Assembly: GCF_025362505.1 (NCBI RefSeq)
Contig: NZ_JANYGG010000028.1
Coordinates: 1-33,714, forward strand
Direction of reading: 5' to 3'
Length of the DNA: 33,714 nt
Source: Sphingomonas sp.
GTDB taxonomy: Bacteria; Pseudomonadota; Alphaproteobacteria; Sphingomonadales; Sphingomonadaceae
Below, piece after piece: positions 26,206 to 33,714 of this stretch. The notes beneath the pieces are model-generated. The model was not told where the DNA came from. It worked only from the letters and a program-made list of their open reading frames with translations, and ran no database searches. The translations under genes and the position numbers were made by a program. Within the stretch, counting starts at the first letter, position 1. The number at the start of each line of letters is the position of its first letter.

Positions 26206-27396
<1,191 letters not shown>

Positions 27397-27535
27397 GTGA
27401 TTCTACTCCGACAAGATAATTGTGCGAGCCTGTATCGAACCCCGCCCCGCCACGCCACCCCGGGGTGCGATGGCGGATGGGGAGAGATACTCGTCACCCC
27501 CCGGTGCCTCGCGCCTTCGGGTGCGGGGAGCTGTC

Positions 27536-27763
27536 GTGAATGGGCGACGCTACATACCTAGGCGCCCCAGCTTCCTGCGCAACTTGACGTGCGGCGCCCG
27601 CGCCCGCTCGGGTGAACCTTGCCGAATGACGGCGCTTCTCCCGAACGGTCGCTGCATTTGGCACGGCGGCAAATCTACCGGGCCAACGTCGGTTGAAGGC
27701 CGGGCAAAGGCGCTTGAGAACCTAAAATTGGGACGGCTCAAGCGCGGGAAGTCACGGAGCTGA
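27536..27763 (+). CDS. Small HGGxSTGP-motif protein of phage/mobile-element type
   Basis: The 75-residue product from GTG 27536 (GGGGAG site about seven bases upstream) has CGARARSGEPCRMTALLPNGRC and IWHGGKSTGPTSVEG, a pattern with three conserved cysteines and HGG that recurs in small proteins of prophages and integrated elements. Zinc binding is possible but not shown, and function is unknown. The open frame extends back to 27422, but that part overlaps no conserved sequence. It lies just left of the tRNA-derived att fragment, outside the element as I draw it, so it may be left over from an earlier insertion at this site. Confidence 0.65.
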   Translation: MNGRRYIPRRPSFLRNLTCGARARSGEPCRMTALLPNGRCIWHGGKSTGPTSVEGRAKALENLKLGRLKRGKSRS

Positions 27764-27821
27764 TTTAATACAGGCTTTTTGGCGCATCCCACGCGCGTGT
27801 GCGAGTTTGGGCCACTAGCCT

Positions 27822-28331
27822 TCAGTGACCGGCAGGTGAAAGGGACCCGCTTGGCGGGGCGGCTGGCTCATCAGGCAGATATTTCACCACCAGCATGCGC
27901 GTCACGGTTTTGCTACCGCCCGACATGCCTAGGCCGAACAACCATCCGAGTCCGCCGGAGGCGCTTCCGCTAGTGCTGCTAAAACCGCCACCGTGGCCAG
28001 CCTCATCTTCACTTTGGACGATAACCGCGTCCCCGCCCGCGTTTTTTACCTTGCTGGCAATGGAGGGGCTCCCGATGGCATGGCCACCATCCCACATTTC
28101 GTCTCGTTTATCCTGCACCATCGCGATGACTTGGTAACGGCGCGGAGGCTCACCGCTGGTCCAATAGTCGATGCCATGCTTGGTCAGCTTGGTCCCGCCC
28201 TCGCCCGTCTTGATGATAGGCTTGCCTTCGTAAAGCGCGAAGTCGATTTTGGCCTGAGCGATCGCGGGGACATAAGGAAACACGACCGCAGTGGCGATCA
28301 AGGCCACTACAAGTTTGCTACGGTATTTCAT
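27822..28331 (-). CDS. Exported protein of unknown function
   Basis: I do not recognise a family with confidence. The 169-residue protein has a clear Sec signal peptide (MKYRSKLVVALIATAVVFPYVPAIAQA, cleavage near residue 27), a compact domain with YQVIAMVQDKRDE and SIASKVKNAGGDAVIVQSE, and a Gly/Ser-rich segment (GGGFSSTSGSASGGLGWLFG) that may be a flexible loop, then VTRMLVVKYLP. The AGGDAVIV turn is reminiscent of small YbjQ/RcsF-like periplasmic folds, but this is only a resemblance. It stands alone between the HGG protein and the att fragment. Confidence 0.75.
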   Translation of the reverse strand: MKYRSKLVVALIATAVVFPYVPAIAQAKIDFALYEGKPIIKTGEGGTKLTKHGIDYWTSGEPPRRYQVIAMVQDKRDEMWDGGHAIGSPSIASKVKNAGGDAVIVQSEDEAGHGGGFSSTSGSASGGLGWLFGLGMSGGSKTVTRMLVVKYLPDEPAAPPSGSLSPAGH

Positions 28332-28479
28332 TCCGGCCCCCCGCTGAAGAACAATGCAGGAGTTACCACCCGCTGTGATTCACCGCCAGCCGATCCGTCG
28401 CTAGTGCAGAGCTTATCGGGGAGCCATTATGGGAATACCAAGCTGCCACCAAATAAAAGGCAATTAAATCATTTATAGC

Positions 28480-28537
28480 TGGCGGAAGAGGTGGGATTCG
28501 AACCCACGGACAGGTTTCCCCGTCGCTGGTTTTCAAG
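28480..28537 (-). tRNA. 3' fragment of a tRNA-Ser(UGA) gene: attachment-site remnant of the integrative element
   Basis: On the reverse strand this reads as the 3' half of a serine tRNA: anticodon loop CTTGAAA (anticodon TGA), 3' anticodon strand ACCAG, a long variable arm with stem GACGGG/CCTGTC and GAAA loop, a T arm GTGGG-TTCGAAT-CCCAC, and acceptor 3' strand CTCTTCC plus G and encoded CCA. The matching 5' acceptor GGAAGAG, D arm and 5' anticodon strand (CTGGT) are absent upstream, where pairing breaks exactly at the anticodon loop. Such a fragment beside an integrase is what tRNA-targeted integration leaves at the distal end. Confidence 0.85.
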
Positions 28538-28685
28538 TTTGCCGCACGCGAGACCCTAGCTACCGGCAGCGACCCGTAGATGCCGGTAATTCCCTCTCGA
28601 ATCAACGACTTAAGCCCCTTGCGCCCTCGCCAGAACCCGTCGTAGCACGGTGTTGCGTGCTAGAAATGCGCTACAAGGAGGTCAC

Positions 28686-29960
28686 ATGCCCAAGCTGACA
28701 AAGTCTTATGTCGAGAAGGCGTTACCGCCCGAAAAGGGCTATAGAATGTATTGGGACGATAGCGTGCGCGGCTATGGGTTGCGCGTCGCTCCTGCATCGG
28801 AAGCGGGCAAGTCCCCGCGCCGCGTGTTCATCGTCATGGGTCGCGTCGCTGGTAAAGCGATACAGTTCACAATCGGCGCTTTCGGCACCTACACCGAGGA
28901 GCAGGCGCGAAAGCGGGCGCAGAAGCTCTTGCAGGACATGCGTGAGGGTATCGACCCGCGAGACACCAAGAAGCACGATGCGGCGGCCGCGATCACGCTC
29001 CGCGATGTAGCGGATGCCTACAAGGATCGGCCTGGCAAGCTGAAGGATTCAAGCGCGGACGTCATTGAGCGTCATGTGACCACGACCTTCGAGGCGTGGC
29101 TGTTGAAGCCCATCGCCTCCATCACCGAGGACGACGTTCGGAAGCGGTACCGCGAAATACTGACGAGGGGGCTGCGCGGGAAGGCAGGGGCACCTGGTCA
29201 AGCCAATCAGGCGTTCGCGGTGTTGCGCGCGCTCATCAACTTCGCAAGCCGCCGGTATCGGCGTTCGGATGGTTCGCCCATCATCACCCATAACCCGGTC
29301 AGCACGCTCAAAGATGATTGGGTTCAGCTAAAACCGCGCACTAGCCGCGTGCCGGATATTAAGGTCGGTCTTGTATGGGCTGCGCTGGAACGCTGGCGCG
29401 CCGAAACGCATAATCCGGAATCTGTCGCCAGCATCGACTTGATAAGGTTTTTATTCCTAACGGGCTGCCGCCTAAAAGAAGCGGCGTCGCTGACGTGGGA
29501 CCATGTAAATTTGGAAGAAGGGTGGTTCCACCTGCCCGATCCGAAGAACCGTAACCCCGTGTGGCTTCCGCTCTCTTCGCAGGCAGTTCGAGTGCTCCGG
29601 TCACGAGCAAAGGTAGATGGCAATCCGCATGTCTTCGCGTCGTGGAGCAAGGCAGGCCATATCATTGATCCCCGCGATACTCGCGCCAAGGTGAGCGTCG
29701 TCGCCGGGACCAAAATCACCAACCACGATTTGCGCCGGACATACATCACCATTGGCGTCGCAAACTGCGGTGTCGATTTTACCAAGATCGAGCTGCTTAC
29801 TAACCACATCCCGAACGGCTCCGTCACCGCTAAGCATTACCTAGAAACTTCGCGCCTCCAATATCTCAAGCCAGAAACACAGCGCATCTCCGACTGGATT
29901 GAAATGGAAGCGGCGAAAGCGAGCGGCAGCAACGTGGTGGCGCTACCCCAGCGAGCATGA
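28686..29960 (+). CDS. int: Tyrosine-type site-specific integrase (P4-like, DUF4102 arm-binding domain)
   Basis: The integrase would recombine attP with the tRNA-Ser site. From ATG 28686, preceded by AAGGAGGT four to five bases upstream, the product is 424 residues. It has an N-terminal DUF4102-like arm-binding domain (VRGYGLRVAP to IDPRD), a SAM-like core-binding domain (about residues 95-205) and a catalytic domain with R262 (TGCRLKEA), H347 and R350 (HDLRRT), H374 (LTNH) and nucleophile Y385 (AKHYLETS). All residues needed for activity are visible. It reads away from the att fragment 150 bases to its left. Confidence 0.95.
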   Translation: MPKLTKSYVEKALPPEKGYRMYWDDSVRGYGLRVAPASEAGKSPRRVFIVMGRVAGKAIQFTIGAFGTYTEEQARKRAQKLLQDMREGIDPRDTKKHDAAAAITLRDVADAYKDRPGKLKDSSADVIERHVTTTFEAWLLKPIASITEDDVRKRYREILTRGLRGKAGAPGQANQAFAVLRALINFASRRYRRSDGSPIITHNPVSTLKDDWVQLKPRTSRVPDIKVGLVWAALERWRAETHNPESVASIDLIRFLFLTGCRLKEAASLTWDHVNLEEGWFHLPDPKNRNPVWLPLSSQAVRVLRSRAKVDGNPHVFASWSKAGHIIDPRDTRAKVSVVAGTKITNHDLRRTYITIGVANCGVDFTKIELLTNHIPNGSVTAKHYLETSRLQYLKPETQRISDWIEMEAAKASGSNVVALPQRA

Positions 29961-29966
29961 TGCACC

Positions 29967-30061
29967 GTGCGGGCCGCTACAGCCGGGGTTACAGCCCCCC
30001 GCGCGAGTTGGGTGCCGGGGTAGGGGCAGCAGCCCCCCAATCGCGGCTGTAGCGCCCGCAC
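29967..30061. repeat. Large nested inverted repeat downstream of the integrase
   Basis: The outer arms, 29967-29985 (GTGCGGGCCGCTACAGCCG) and 30044-30061, are reverse complements except for one extra base, giving an ~18-pair stem. Inside lies a second perfect hairpin, GGGGC-AGCA-GCCCC (30023-30036), and further G- and C-runs that can pair. It begins six bases after the integrase stop. The rest of the 326-base gap to the regulator (to 30286) shows no convincing gene or promoter. Roles could be transcription end, protection of int from readthrough, or a processing or recombination site. Confidence 0.75.
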
Positions 30062-30286
30062 AGCGACGGCCGCATTTCCAAGATTCTCCGCAGGCTTCGC
30101 AACATCTGTTTTCCAAGCAAATTTAACTGCTTGCACGAACTGTAGCGCTCAGCTTAAGGTTACCACCGTCACCTACGGGTGGCCCCACTCGCTTCCAGTC
30201 TCCTGGCTGGTCACGAATCCATCGCTCCGGCGGTCGCGGGTGGCAACCTTCTCGATAAAAGGTCGAGCCTGTTGAAGGGCTTGTCT

Positions 30287-30541
30287 ATGTCCGATTTGTC
30301 GTTCGAGCAGCTTTGCGAGCTGTTCAATTATTCTCCCAAGCGGCGTCCCCTTGAACCTAAGGAGGCAGCGGAGATTCTCTCGCTCTCGTATGAGACACTG
30401 GAGGGTTACCGCACGCGCGGAGTGCCGCTCCGTTACTTCAGTCCGCCCGGCACCCGTATCGTACGTTACGCGGAACGCGACGTGCTCGCGTGGCTCGCGC
30501 GCGGTGCTCGCTACAGCACCAGCGAACAGGCTGCGGTCTGA
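30287..30541 (+). CDS. AlpA/excisionase-like helix-turn-helix protein
   Basis: From ATG 30287 the 84-residue product has a MerR-like winged HTH of the excisionase type: LEPKEAAEILSLSYETLEGYRTRGVPLRYFSPPGTRIVRYAERDVLAWLARG. The order is helix, turn, recognition helix, wing, then the R-Y-x-x-x-D-V-x-x-W-L ending typical of AlpA and phage Xis proteins. It would bind element DNA to direct excision or activate int. The open frame extends upstream to 30179, but the conserved part and an AAGGG site favour 30287. A 9-pair hairpin follows 20 bases after the stop. Confidence 0.85.
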   Translation: MSDLSFEQLCELFNYSPKRRPLEPKEAAEILSLSYETLEGYRTRGVPLRYFSPPGTRIVRYAERDVLAWLARGARYSTSEQAAV

Positions 30542-30562
30542 CTCTCCCACTTTTTATGAAAA

Positions 30563-30586
30563 GCGGCAGGGCTGTGACCCTGCCGC
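30563..30586. terminator. Hairpin after the excisionase-like gene
   Basis: GCGGCAGGG (30563-30571) and CCCTGCCGC (30578-30586) form a perfect nine-pair stem with a six-base loop. Read on the reverse strand it is followed by TTTTCATAAAAA, so it would be the better terminator in that direction; on the forward strand no T-run follows. Confidence 0.5.
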
Positions 30587-30598
30587 CGGAGTCTCAAG

Positions 30599-30745
30599 GT
30601 GAACAGCAACATATTACGCGGCCTCTACGAAGGTCCGCAACAGACACCAAATCCTCAAAAATTCGCGCGCGCTCAAAACGGGCCGGATGCGATTGATCTG
30701 CCTCGAATTGACACTCTACCCGGAGCGGCGGTGCGTCATGGATGA
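30599..30745 (+). CDS. Possible 48-residue small protein coupled to the DUF3987-like gene
   Basis: The GTG at 30599 has a GGAG site about seven bases upstream. The frame (MNSNILRGLYEGPQQTPNPQ... to DTLPGAAVRHG) ends at TGA 30743-30745, eight bases past the ATG of the next gene, which is a typical translational-coupling overlap. The composition is polar and Pro/Gln-rich, with no membrane segment. I know no family. It would fill an otherwise empty 196-base gap, and it competes with a 46-codon frame from ATG 30556 that has no good ribosome site. Confidence 0.4.
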   Translation: MNSNILRGLYEGPQQTPNPQKFARAQNGPDAIDLPRIDTLPGAAVRHG

Positions 30746-32237
30746 CCCCCTCTTTGATGCTTCCGGTTTGATTGAGAAGGCTGAGCAGGTTCGGGCGAAG
30801 GCAGAGCAATCGGTCCGGGAAAAGGCCGCTCGCGAGTTAGATGAAGCGCTAACCGCGCCCGGCGGTGGGGCGTACTCTGCAGGCGGTACTTCGCAACCGA
30901 CGCAAGGTGCAGTGCCGTTCCCACCAGGTTTCATCGGTGCGCTGGCTCAATTCATCTACGATCAAGCGCCTCTACCTGTAGCCGAGGTGGCAATCGTCGG
31001 AGCGCTAGGGCTCATGGCGGGCATTGCCGGTCGGAGTTGGCATATCCCTGATTCAGGTTTGAACCTGTACGTCGTGCTGGTTGCTCGCTCAGCCATCGGC
31101 AAAGAGGCAATGCACAGCGGCATCAGTAAGCTCTTAAGCGCCGCAATGGAGCAGTTCCCCGATGCGGAAGATCGCGTGGACTTTAGCGATTTTGTTTCAG
31201 GACCAGCGCTGCTGAAGGTCTGCTTGGACAATCCGTGTTTCGTTAATGTTGCCGGTGAGATTGGACACAAATTCCTCGCCATGTCCAAAGGCAATGATCC
31301 CAGCATGAGGTCGTTCCAGAAAGTGCTGACCACCCTTTATTCCAAGTCTGGTCCCGATGGGGTTGCAGGAGGGATGACCTATAGCAATCGGGAGAATAAC
31401 GTAGCGTCGACGCGGGGGGTCGCGTTTAGCCTGATCGGCGAAACAACTCCTGGCACGTTTTATGAAGCGATCACTGACGCAATGATGCGCGACGGTCTCA
31501 TGTCTCGGTTCTGCGTCATCGAATATGCAGGTGACCGTCCAGCGAGAAATCGTGTTCCCGTTCAGCGCCCGCCGAAGGCTTTGATTGACCACACTGTTCT
31601 CGTCATGCGCCACGCGGATGTGCTTCAGCGAGCAGGAAACTCTCCTGAGGTTGGATTCACCGAAGACGCGCGTGCGCTGCTCGACCGCTTCGATGTCGAA
31701 TGCCATTCGGCGATTATTGCTGCCGATGACGACGAGAGCCAGCGGGCAGTGTGGAACCGGGCGCACCTGAACGCGCTGCGCATTTCTGCGCTGCTGGCCG
31801 TGGGAGACAACCCCTTCTTTCCGACCGTCTCGTTGGACCAGGCGTCTTACGCGGTGCTCCTCGTTCGTCACGGAGCGTCAGCCTTTATCCGCCGCATTCA
31901 GGCAGGAGATATTGGCGAGGGAAGCGACGGCGGGCGCGAGCAGAAAGTCTTGGCACTGTGCAAGGAGTTTCTATGCCTCCCCGCTAATAAGATGCCATCG
32001 TGGTTGAAGCACGGCGCAGAGATGAAGGGGGTTGGCATCGTACCGCGACGATATCTCCAACATCGCACGCAACGGCTGACAGCTTTCGAGAATCACAAGC
32101 AAGGTCATACGGGGGCGCTCAACATGGCAGTCAAAACCGCCGTGACGAACGGCTACCTGATGGAAGTAAAGAAGGACAAGCTGGTGGAGGAGTTTAACTT
32201 TCACGGTCAAGCATATCGGGTGGTCGATCTGAACTGA
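30738..32237 (+). CDS. DUF3987-like replication-associated ATPase with degenerate Walker A
   Basis: From ATG 30738 the protein is 499 residues; an upstream ATG at 30687 is less likely because it overlaps the small frame. After a charged, then Gly/Thr-rich leader (1-60) it has the layout of DUF3987 primase-helicase-type proteins: VGALGLMAGIAGRSWHI, a P-loop position reading ARSAIGKE (K122), an acidic strand NVAGEIGHKFLAM, VAFSLIGETTPGTFYEAI and an arginine segment GLMSRFCVIEY, then a winged-helix-like C-terminus. The P-loop lacks both the first Gly and the Ser/Thr after Lys. In elements of this kind such proteins sit in the replication module, but activity here is uncertain. Confidence 0.7.
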   Translation: MDDPLFDASGLIEKAEQVRAKAEQSVREKAARELDEALTAPGGGAYSAGGTSQPTQGAVPFPPGFIGALAQFIYDQAPLPVAEVAIVGALGLMAGIAGRSWHIPDSGLNLYVVLVARSAIGKEAMHSGISKLLSAAMEQFPDAEDRVDFSDFVSGPALLKVCLDNPCFVNVAGEIGHKFLAMSKGNDPSMRSFQKVLTTLYSKSGPDGVAGGMTYSNRENNVASTRGVAFSLIGETTPGTFYEAITDAMMRDGLMSRFCVIEYAGDRPARNRVPVQRPPKALIDHTVLVMRHADVLQRAGNSPEVGFTEDARALLDRFDVECHSAIIAADDDESQRAVWNRAHLNALRISALLAVGDNPFFPTVSLDQASYAVLLVRHGASAFIRRIQAGDIGEGSDGGREQKVLALCKEFLCLPANKMPSWLKHGAEMKGVGIVPRRYLQHRTQRLTAFENHKQGHTGALNMAVKTAVTNGYLMEVKKDKLVEEFNFHGQAYRVVDLN

Positions 32238-32270
32238 ATGACTACAATGCCGAGGCTACAGCTATAGCTT

Positions 32271-32482
32271 GTGTTAGCCCGTGCGGCCCCGCCAACCACC
32301 AAGGCTCCGGTTAGTAATAGCCTGTGTTAGCTGAAGCCAGGCTAACGCTAGAAACCGCGAAAAACCCATAAATCCATATAAAAAACATAGAAGGTTAGTG
32401 CGTTAGCCTAAGCGGGCAGTCCTAGGCTTTTGGGTGCTGAACGGCTGGATCGCGCGAACCGCCCGACACTAACGGCTAACGC
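32271..32482. repeat. Array of GTTAGC repeats, candidate replication origin or control region
   Basis: The 436-base gap 32238-32673 has no gene. GTTAGC occurs forward at 32273, 32326 and 32402 and inverted (GCTAAC) at 32341 and 32475. Two forward copies extend to GTGTTAGC, and the others share (T)GCGTTAGCC or its complement GGCTAACGC. Partial copies (GGTTAG) lie at 32309 and 32393. An A/T-rich stretch (about 32361-32390) lies among them. Repeats plus an A/T-rich segment next to a replication-type ATPase resemble an iteron origin. Regulation of the next gene is the alternative. Confidence 0.55.
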
Positions 32483-32673
32483 GCTACAGCGTCGAAAGGA
32501 GCAGCGTCCAAAGGGTTCGCTGCCCGCGCTTTTAAGACGAACACCAAACTACCAGTTTTATGGTCGTCGCCGGACCAACTGACCTAAGTAGTTGAAACAA
32601 CAATATAACTATTGCGGACCTACAACCGGCTACCCTAAGCTCTAGCCCATGCTTAGCCGTACCGGAGACTAAT

Positions 32674-33408
32674 ATGTCCGAAGAAATTGATACCCGCGTA
32701 GCTGCTGATCTTCATCCCGATGTGGTTACATTAATGGAAGACTACGACGATGATACTGCCACCATCCTCGCGCCGACTGTGGCGGCATTTACCGAGGCGT
32801 ATAGTGGGATCGGCAGAGTGCACGACGCCAAGGAGAAGGCGCGCACGAACCCGACTTGGAACGACGCGCGGCAGCTCATTGAAACCGACAACTTCGGGCA
32901 AGCCGTGTTCGCGCAGATCGCCAAGCGCTTCGACGGTGCCGCAGCCAATCTGAAAACCGTCATCGGTAGCATCGAAAAAGAGTTTGCCGCGCCGATTGAG
33001 AGCAAGGCAGCGGGCATCATCGCGCAGGAGATACGCACGCATGTGAAGGGGCTGAAAACAGCCGAGCGCATGACGTTTGTTCAGGCTGCCATCCGGGACG
33101 GTGACCAGCGCACGGCTACGGCGATCTTAGGGGCACCAGCCTACCTGTCGGGCATGGACCGGGAGACCCAAACCGTCCTGACGCGGATCTATCACGAGCA
33201 TCACGAACCGGTGAAGACGAAGCGATTGAAGGCGGCTCAGGCTGGTCTCGATTTGGTCGAGAAGAGGGGAGGGGTCGTCCATACTCAGCTTGCGAAGGCA
33301 ATCGGCTGTATCGAGGAGCGGAACGACCGAGGCACCGTCACCCGGCGCATTTTCGCAAAAGAACTAAAAAAAGCGAAATCGGCGGCCGAGAAGGCTTTTG
33401 TCCTGTGA
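32674..33408 (+). CDS. Protein of unknown function, mostly helical
   Basis: I do not recognise this 244-residue protein. It is acidic at the N-terminus (MEDYDDDTATILAP), then charged and alanine-rich with predicted long helices (for example KRFDGAAANLKTVIGSIEKEF, IIAQEIRTHVKGLKTAERM), and basic at the end (RRIFAKELKKAKSAAEKAF). It has no signal peptide, membrane segment or obvious catalytic motif. The start has a GGAG site seven bases upstream. The stop overlaps the GTG of the next frame (GTGA), so the two are probably co-translated. A structural or DNA-associated role in the element would be a guess. Confidence 0.75.
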   Translation: MSEEIDTRVAADLHPDVVTLMEDYDDDTATILAPTVAAFTEAYSGIGRVHDAKEKARTNPTWNDARQLIETDNFGQAVFAQIAKRFDGAAANLKTVIGSIEKEFAAPIESKAAGIIAQEIRTHVKGLKTAERMTFVQAAIRDGDQRTATAILGAPAYLSGMDRETQTVLTRIYHEHHEPVKTKRLKAAQAGLDLVEKRGGVVHTQLAKAIGCIEERNDRGTVTRRIFAKELKKAKSAAEKAFVL

Positions 33409-33714
33409 CGCTTGATCCAATCAAATCACAGATCGCTCACAAGACCGATGTTTCACCGCCTCCATGGATGCAAGGATGGAAGCCGACGCCGCTTTGCCAG
33501 CAGGCTGTGGTCACACCAGGCGGACCCGGCAATCCATCATGGAAACCCGGTTGCCCCTCGCCAAACCCGCAAGGACGCCCGCCGGGCATACCGGACAGGC
33601 GGTTACTCGCCACTCAGCAGATGCTCGAAGAGATGCGTAACATCGTGGCGGTGCTGATCGGCAAAGCGCTTGAGGGGGACACTGGCGCGGCGGCGGTTGT
33701 GCTCTCCAAAACCC
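33405..33714 (+). CDS. DUF5681-like protein, cut by window end
   Basis: From GTG 33405, overlapping the stop of the preceding gene, a frame stays open for 103 codons to the last base. It encodes IKSQIAHKTDVSPPPWMQGWKP, then GGPGNPSWKPGCPSPNPQGRPPGIPDRR, then a helical ATQQMLEEMRNIVAVLIGKAL. The GNP...GRPPG pattern is like the short N-terminal motif of DUF5681 proteins, which are common in prophages and integrated elements near packaging genes; their role is unknown. The C-terminus lies outside the window. A closed 81-codon frame from 33412 in another phase is not supported. Confidence 0.6.
   Translation, partial: MTLDPIKSQIAHKTDVSPPPWMQGWKPTPLCQQAVVTPGGPGNPSWKPGCPSPNPQGRPPGIPDRRLLATQQMLEEMRNIVAVLIGKALEGDTGAAAVVLSKT

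Follow-up and report, generated by a model that had tools for sequence, protein, structure and literature searches.

A putative phage-satellite-like element at a split tRNA-Ser(UGA) gene in Sphingomonas

What has interrupted a tRNA-Ser(UGA) gene near the end of a Sphingomonas sp. contig, and which gene replaces it? We examined contig NZ_JANYGG010000028.1 of assembly GCF_025362505.1 at its full length of 33,714 bp (the window, which is the entire contig C96 of a 2.64-Mb assembly in 138 contigs). From position 28480 to the contig end the window reads, in order, the 3' half of a tRNA-Ser(UGA) gene on the reverse strand, an integrase, an HTH_17-type regulator, a DUF3987 helicase, a 244-residue protein (U244) and a truncated DUF5681 gene. 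The element stops at the end of C96, a break set by the assembly and not by the choice of window. We favor, with a probability of roughly 0.7, an integrated phage-satellite-like element with an AlpA-type switch, its own replication, packaging by a helper phage, an element-borne tRNA and defence cargo. This general kind of element is known; the new aspects are the tRNA swap at Ser(UGA) and the family marked by U244.

The split tRNA gene and a second, complete copy

ARAGORN found no whole tRNA in the window. The 58 nt at 28480–28537 (reverse strand) are 97% identical to the 3'-terminal 58 nt of an intact tRNA-Ser(UGA) (E 9.5e-20), so the match is not due to chance. The fragment begins at the anticodon loop with CTTGAAA (28531–28537), the 7-bp attachment (att) core at this end (attR), as expected from the original prediction of a tRNA-Ser 3' fragment broken at the anticodon loop. 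The sole other match of the element region in the assembly is on contig C71 (45697–45754), where it forms the 3'-terminal 58 nt of a whole tRNA-Ser(UGA) gene (C71:45665–45754) that lies 887 bases from the contig end. C71 carries a lone 5' tRNA half (positions 1285–1323 of L002, on C71), then the complete tRNA-Ser(UGA), and then a type II restriction-enzyme gene at the contig end. The acceptor strand of the lone 5' half (GGAAGAG) is complementary to the end of the window fragment (CTCTTCC); the intact tRNA (GGAAGCG/CGCTTCC) differs from this split gene. An intact tRNA-Ser(UGA) and a far att copy, which had been expected beyond the window, are therefore present on C71, but the intact gene reads as a second, element-borne copy rather than as the restored target.

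The two contig ends can be related through a genome with an empty site (G683), in which the gene of window positions 26206–27396, one tRNA-Ser(TGA) and the L002 1–881 region adjoin, with spacings of ~75 bp and ~290 bp and the whole within 2.53 kb. Because their flanks are neighbors in G683, the C96 and C71 ends are most likely the two ends of a single interrupted locus. Joining contigs by end overlap gave no result, since the C96 end, searched against the assembly, matched itself only. The site could be read across in 29 of 40 other genomes of the genus; each has one tRNA-Ser(TGA) and no element gene, and 28 of the 29 lack any tRNA fragment. The gap between the tRNA and the neighboring gene varies across these relatives from ~75 bp to >9 kb. 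We considered the site as a hotspot for the element family and rejected this, because none of the 29 stretches carries element genes and the variation in the gap must have other causes.

The layout of a split plus a complete tRNA gene recurs in four other elements read at both ends (L052, L083, L094 and L122). With G-U counted as paired, joining the 5' half to the far 3' half gives 12, 12, 11, 12 and 12 paired stem positions out of 12 in the window element, L052, L083, L094 and L122, respectively; joining it to the 3' part of the intact tRNA gives 11, 9, 7, 10 and 8. For comparisons of att sites and tRNAs we added L084, which is outside the set of 11 bounded elements described below. In all six elements the junction near the tRNA reads GGT[CTTGAAA]GCT and the one near the integrase AAA[CTTGAAA]ACC, and the intact tRNA begins 124 bp (four elements), 145 bp (window) or 148 bp from the core. 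The six intact tRNAs have 78–87 of 90 positions in common. The split genes of L052, L083, L094, L122 and L084 share 77–88 of 90 positions among themselves and 83–86 with the uninterrupted native gene of L129, but only 71–74 with the tRNA of their own element. The split gene is thus of native type in five of the six elements, the window being the exception. Because the element tRNAs are alike and the split genes are mostly of native type, the complete tRNA-Ser(UGA) is, judging from these alignments, a gene that travels with the element. The target tRNA is not rebuilt from the 3' fragment; it stays split around CTTGAAA, with the complete replacement 124–148 bp inside the element.

Seven related elements in tRNA-Lys(CUU) (L053, L078, L080, L085, L120, L121 and L124) show the usual arrangement: their direct repeats (34–54 bp, 97–100% identical) begin in the anticodon region and reach the tRNA 3' end in six of the seven. 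In an integrase tree the window integrase and those of the other Ser(UGA) elements form one group (local support 0.963, with L096 in it), next to the Lys(CUU) integrases.

We propose that the tyrosine integrase recombines the 7-bp core CTTGAAA within the anticodon loop of tRNA-Ser(UGA) and thereby splits the target gene, that the element's own complete tRNA-Ser(UGA), just inside the far end, replaces it, and that excision would rejoin the two halves. The intact C71 gene is the sole serine tRNA with a UGA anticodon among the 42 of 43 tRNA matches with a readable anticodon in this fragmented assembly, which may hide a second copy; the other serine tRNAs among them are one GGA and two GCT. Such an exchange would amount to a mobile element taking over an essential host gene and could explain resistance of the island to loss. 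It also means that the familiar signature of an intact tRNA plus a fragment can mask a replaced tRNA gene.

The window locus may have undergone this exchange twice. Its split gene is itself of element type, matching the tRNA of its element at 87/90 positions and the native gene of L129 at 69/90. On C71, a decayed native 5' half (L002 ~1240–1274; 31/35 to G683) follows native upstream sequence. In the window, the host's original tRNA-Ser(UGA) may survive as a decayed 3' end (27471–27506, reverse strand), which lies at the place predicted by synteny, ~75 bp from a gene that we take to be acyl-CoA dehydrogenase-like. The local alignment of this remnant with the tRNA 3' half of G683 is modest: its score of 34 compares with a maximum of 32 in 1000 random placements in window positions 1–27000, so that none reaches 34 and the best comes close. 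The ~1 kb that follows (27507–28479) is absent from the G683 empty site and may be a remnant of an earlier insertion. From these features we infer that an earlier element swapped the tRNA and was then lost except for this ~1 kb and its tRNA, and that the present element integrated there.

A family with conserved gene order and candidate packaging genes

The integrase (28686–29960, forward strand, as are the genes that follow) matches PF13356 (Arm-DNA-bind_3; E 4.2e-10), PF00589 (E 1.5e-10) and phrog_1 (integrase; E 1.1e-36). The regulator (30287–30541) matches HTH_17 (PF12728; E 4.2e-8) and belongs to a gene cluster (F3) conserved in relatives. It had been called AlpA-like; the AlpA Pfam model itself is not among its matches, and we keep the label on the basis of HTH_17. 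The replication helicase/ATPase (30687–32237) matches DUF3987 (PF13148; E 1.5e-10) and phrog_3022 ('DNA primase'; E 5e-130). The latter match spans only positions 302–781 of the 788-position profile, and the window helicase therefore lacks the N-terminal part of phage primase-helicases; it is 42.9–49.0% identical to phage records among 20 of 314 matches listed. U244 (32674–33408) is followed by the DUF5681 gene (33405–33714; E 1.6e-6), which is cut by the contig end. The integrase adjacent to the tRNA fragment, the replication-type ATPase and the DUF5681 protein of the original prediction are thus supported by Pfam or PHROG matches. The replication origin suggested alongside them is less secure. 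The eight GTTAGC/GTTAGT/GCTAAC/ACTAAC hexamers at 32273–32480 do exist, but their top count is equalled in 9 of 200 dinucleotide shuffles, which is weak, and is unremarkable in several of ten regions tested, which weighs against this candidate.

Matches to the window helicase occur in 15 of 397 genomes of the host family, four besides the source at 51–64% identity. U244 likewise matches in 15 of 397 family genomes and, searched as a profile, in 14 of 396 genomes of the order; the hit sets overlap, and some of the weakest profile hits were unconfirmed by tblastn. Five further U244 loci came from named genomes and two from viral contigs; the carriers include Sphingomonas colocasiae JCM 31229 and Sphingobium sp. 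Leaf26. The loci fall into two groups. Those of group A were gathered via U244 or the helicase (L097 via DUF5681), and in all 22 DUF5681 adjoins U244. Eleven relatives with both ends known measure 8,079–10,036 bp, and all 11 have the order integrase, HTH_17-type regulator, helicase, U244, DUF5681. The search for elements of the same order thus bears out an integrative element with satellite-like gene order, and by analogy the window element is probably 8–10 kb long. In one otherwise bounded element (L085, 9855–10573) U244 is broken into two reading frames. The helicase is exchanged among members (phrog_3022, phrog_2373 and other primase/helicase types). After DUF5681, small conserved genes F5, F7 and F6 are found in 15, 9 and 15 of 30 sources by codon-trained gene calls, and one example of each had no PHROG match. 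Two length-called open reading frames (ORFs) in L052 and its relatives, u172 and u173, were discarded as antisense artefacts, the codon-trained F5, F7 and F6 lying on the opposite strand.

In group B, TerL directly precedes the U244-like gene in 9/9 loci, with confirmation by PHROG in 3/3 and by Pfam in 2/3 of those tested, and TerS (phrog_309) precedes TerL in 5/5 tested. The group B integrases do not form a single clade in the integrase tree. We left out of all counts two loci with U244 profile hits unconfirmed by tblastn (L130, L132), L129 (helicase, no U244), L208 (another element, from a viral contig), L051 (just integrase and helicase, on a contig of 4.5 kb) and L055.

A PHROG scan of the 11 bounded group A elements covered 59 accessory genes, and 27 families reached E 1e-3. 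None of the 25 listed is a head, tail or lysis family; those listed are methyltransferases, DNA-binding proteins, primase, helicase, repressor and families of unknown function.

The defence cargo that had been suspected in the distal part is present at the tRNA side. The ORF at the C71 end, which runs off the contig, matches the PADLOC type II restriction enzyme PDLC03417 (E 6.9e-28, profile positions 6–221 of 262); neither Pfam (E 0.1) nor the PDB (E 1) gave a match. The same slot holds a restriction enzyme and a methyltransferase in L078 (with the same gene clusters in L085), a restriction enzyme in L124, a methyltransferase and a restriction enzyme in L086, an OLD-family protein in L087 and a methyltransferase in L126. 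Between helicase and U244 lie a HEPN gene in L052 and a DUF4145 gene in L053. Known genes of restriction or HEPN type are therefore present in four of the 11 bounded elements (L052, L078, L085 and L124), and in five if DUF4145 is included.

DUF5681 may be a TerS-like protein in the element, to judge from gene position and a short motif region. Among 58 genomes of the class, PF18932 (DUF5681) gave 14 matches in 9 genomes. Eight of these exceed the cut-off and come from neither the element family nor the window genome (L133–L137, L142, L143 and L145). In six of these eight loci, DUF5681 lies beside TerL (identified by Pfam, below the cut-off in L133) and is flanked on its other side by what we take to be a ParB-like/DNA-methyltransferase gene; L136 has only the methyltransferase neighbor, and L137 has neither. 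In a viral contig (L212) DUF5681 overlaps the start of TerL. The available portion of a study of a Salmonella phage reports a DUF5681 protein in the structural proteome (PMC8954984), and our literature search on DUF5681 turned up phage work only.

Three U244 representatives had no match in 50,697 phage records, and one had none in 72,556 plasmids. The U244 model is confident (predicted local distance difference test, pLDDT, 91.1) and nearly all α-helical, with a long hairpin and a helical end. A resemblance to the P4 protein Sid was considered and is unsupported: the structural matches are for the most part generic helical bundles (top Z 10.0), and Sid is absent among the 50 listed. Since both groups retain U244, beside the TerS candidate in group A and beside TerL in group B, we favor a role for it in packaging or in head size. 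In the mechanism we envisage, the AlpA-like switch and the phage-derived DUF3987 helicase would excise and replicate the element, the TerS-like DUF5681 protein and U244 would direct its DNA into helper-phage particles, and the cargo slot by the tRNA would hold the type II restriction enzyme.

More tentatively, and at somewhat less than even odds, a wider proposal can be made. Sphingomonadaceae would harbor a satellite family marked by a satellite-only U244. Members of its Ser(UGA) branch would eliminate the single host gene for the UCA-reading tRNA and put their own in its place; the cell would then depend on the element or on its tRNA scar, and successive satellites would pass the tRNA on at one site. 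U244 would be a new capsid-size or packaging factor across branches, whether their large terminase is borrowed or their own. Most of the phage satellites studied in depth are from enterobacteria, vibrios or cocci. A bounded sphingomonad family with terminase-type genes and no shell genes seen would widen this set, with U244 and DUF5681 as handles for finding further members.

Competing explanations and known systems

The restriction-type and HEPN-type genes of several members would also fit a defence island, retained chiefly for these genes and spread through conjugation or general transduction, in which U244 and DUF5681 are accessory DNA-binding proteins and there is no dedicated packaging. 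The packaging roles of both proteins are indeed predictions, and the scan of the accessory genes covered PHROG families only. We nevertheless regard this as unlikely: DUF5681 accompanies U244 at every group A locus while the helicase is swapped, and group B has TerS and TerL beside U244; we know of no use of terminase genes in conjugation. A normal temperate phage reduced to its early genes would account for the phage-type integrase, helicase and DUF5681, but is less likely still, because independent decay would not yield an identical gene set and the 11 relatives, at 8.1–10.0 kb, keep the same ordered core with no structural family among the PHROG families listed; the absence of U244 from the phage records points the same way. 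Least likely, and in our view very improbable, is that the complete tRNA-Ser is a host gene that already lay beside the target, so that no tRNA was carried. The variable target region of the relatives (~75 bp to >9 kb from tRNA to neighbor) leaves room for such a gene, and the tRNA of the 29 genus stretches, native in 21, is ambiguous between native and element type in 8, a weak point of the comparison. All 29 stretches have a single tRNA-Ser(TGA), however, the second tRNA keeps its 124–148 bp distance from the core in 6/6 elements, and the element tRNAs are closer to each other than to the host type.

Several points weigh against the phage-satellite-like reading itself. The element is known from sequence alone, and its induction, excision, circle, particle and helper are predictions; its middle is missing between the contigs, so that structural genes there are excluded only by analogy; and the assembly (estimated completeness 99.98) has an estimated contamination of 5.89%. 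In the stem comparison, a cross-control showed that 5' halves also pair with 3' halves taken from other elements, at 7–12 of 12 positions (12 in a single case, L052 with L122), owing to the similarity of native tRNAs; the stem test is therefore strongest where the host tRNAs differ. The best PHROG of the prophage DUF5681 tested (phrog_26239, unknown function) differs from that of the element proteins (phrog_9747; L052, L095), and a common DUF5681 role therefore rests on the short motif region and gene position. For DUF5681 the structural model has low confidence (mean pLDDT 71.5) and no match at E <= 1e-3, and the U244 fold has no informative match (Foldseek, none at E <= 1e-3 in the PDB or BFVD). 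L055, with a similar integrase and helicase, showed no U244 in an ORF search. No restriction- or HEPN-type gene was recognized in seven of the 11 bounded elements, PADLOC having covered part of the genes; one of the seven, L083, has a single weak PADLOC hit (E 4.4e-5).

How does the phage-satellite-like element compare with described systems? Phage-inducible chromosomal minimalist islands (PICMIs) of Vibrionaceae are described, in the accessible part of the report, as having a core of integrase, AlpA/HTH_17 regulator and DUF3987, an average size of 6.7 kb and a hallmark fis site, with no capsid-remodelling genes mentioned there and a defence system in the prototype (PMC10803314). The window has the same core gene set co-located (PF00589, PF12728 and PF13148), and both are small, with a defence gene in the window element and, as far as that account goes, in the PICMI prototype. 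The window family differs in residing in tRNA-Ser or tRNA-Lys and not in fis, in adding U244 and DUF5681, and in the tRNA carried by its Ser(UGA) branch. The same partial account states that the PICMI search model (integrase, AlpA, DUF3987/DUF5906) also found elements outside Vibrionaceae (PMC10803314), among which there may be relatives of the window element.

Gram-negative phage-inducible chromosomal islands (PICIs) are outlined, in the available text, as ~12–15 kb elements with an integrase, an AlpA-type regulator, a replication gene, TerS or cos packaging, cargo and no structural genes (PMC6092414). The window element shares the integrase, regulator and replication module in conserved order, as well as cargo, and has a TerS candidate. 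Phage-dependent induction and packaging, a further mark of PICIs, are predicted for it. It differs in the size of its relatives (8.1–10.0 kb), in a helicase without the N-terminal primase part, in U244, in the TerS-TerL pair of group B and in the replacement tRNA. PICIs are also separated from prophages by att sites that prophages never use, and here L096, a single case, has prophage-like genes across the tRNA-Ser; as to structural and lytic genes, another dividing line, none is among the 25 of 27 listed families of the 11 relatives. Capsid-forming PICIs (cf-PICIs) are defined by their own capsid, portal and head genes, none of which is among the PHROG families listed for the accessory genes of the 11 relatives.

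P4-like satellites and the window integrase have the P4-type integrase architecture in common. The P4 marker genes are sid, psu and delta; none appeared in the Pfam and PHROG scans of the tested genes, which included no dedicated search for them. In the portions available, two reports describe P4-like satellites as small and as having a hotspot of defence genes (PMC9122126, PMC6092414). The window element is similarly small and carries defence genes, and has a different replication protein. Tycheposons combine a tyrosine recombinase, a tRNA at the border and cargo, with sizes of 4–200 kb and metabolic cargo according to a partial, second-hand description (PMC10872708). The first three features are shared with the window element; the size range and metabolic cargo, as given in that description, set Tycheposons apart. 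Some Tycheposons carry a full tRNA. For tRNA islands, the accessible text on Islander describes an island between a tRNA gene and a displaced fragment, an anticodon-loop subsite and an attP fragment that restores the target (PMC4383910). The family shares the tRNA gene, displaced fragment and anticodon-loop site, and its Lys(CUU) branch follows this usual rule, whereas in the Ser(UGA) branch the halves stay apart and a second, whole gene comes with the element.

The best reading is a phage-satellite-like element near PICIs and PICMIs, of a subtype for which our literature search gave no earlier description. We do not file it as either; by analogy it most likely works like one, and mobilization would be by phage. 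Judged by title and the start of the abstract, and with subscription papers mostly outside the search, no paper names this family or satellites with a whole replacement tRNA; a search for phage satellites in sphingomonads found none on such satellites by title and abstract start.

Related and neighboring stretches

Two bounded tRNA islands with an integrase and a DUF3987-type helicase but no U244 were not counted as family members: L057 (1613–10216; Pro-GGG, 51-bp repeat) and L059 (2000–11221; Ser-CGA, 28-bp repeat), which are possibly other satellite types. An IMG/VR contig (2700989279_000002; L095, L100 and L101) was considered as a Mu-like phage carrying U244, and this was rejected, the integrase and helicase lying at one end and U244-DUF5681 at the other. 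Mu-like genes (GemA, rve transposase) lie between helicase and U244, and the element appears to be interrupted by a transposable Mu-like phage. In two further IMG/VR stretches, L096 (8265–15063) and L097 (7519–16487), the element abuts prophage-like genes (endolysin and tail-type, assigned partly by eye); in L096 the prophage side and the tRNA-Ser have a ACTTGAAAAC site between them, and phage and satellite may share one integration site there. IMG/VR selects for prophage neighbors of this kind.

Within the window, a 169-residue ORF (27822–28331, reverse strand) with a signal-peptide-like start by eye lies between the host gene and the element; its Pfam and PHROG searches were empty at E 0.1. 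The window genome also holds a second, different element-like stretch on contig C56 (G000:C56:24886–30696; L225 4887–10697). It has an integrase-like match, a helicase judged by eye to be DUF3987-like, a 159-residue gene and DUF5681, and is adjoined by an IS3-like transposase, also assigned by eye.

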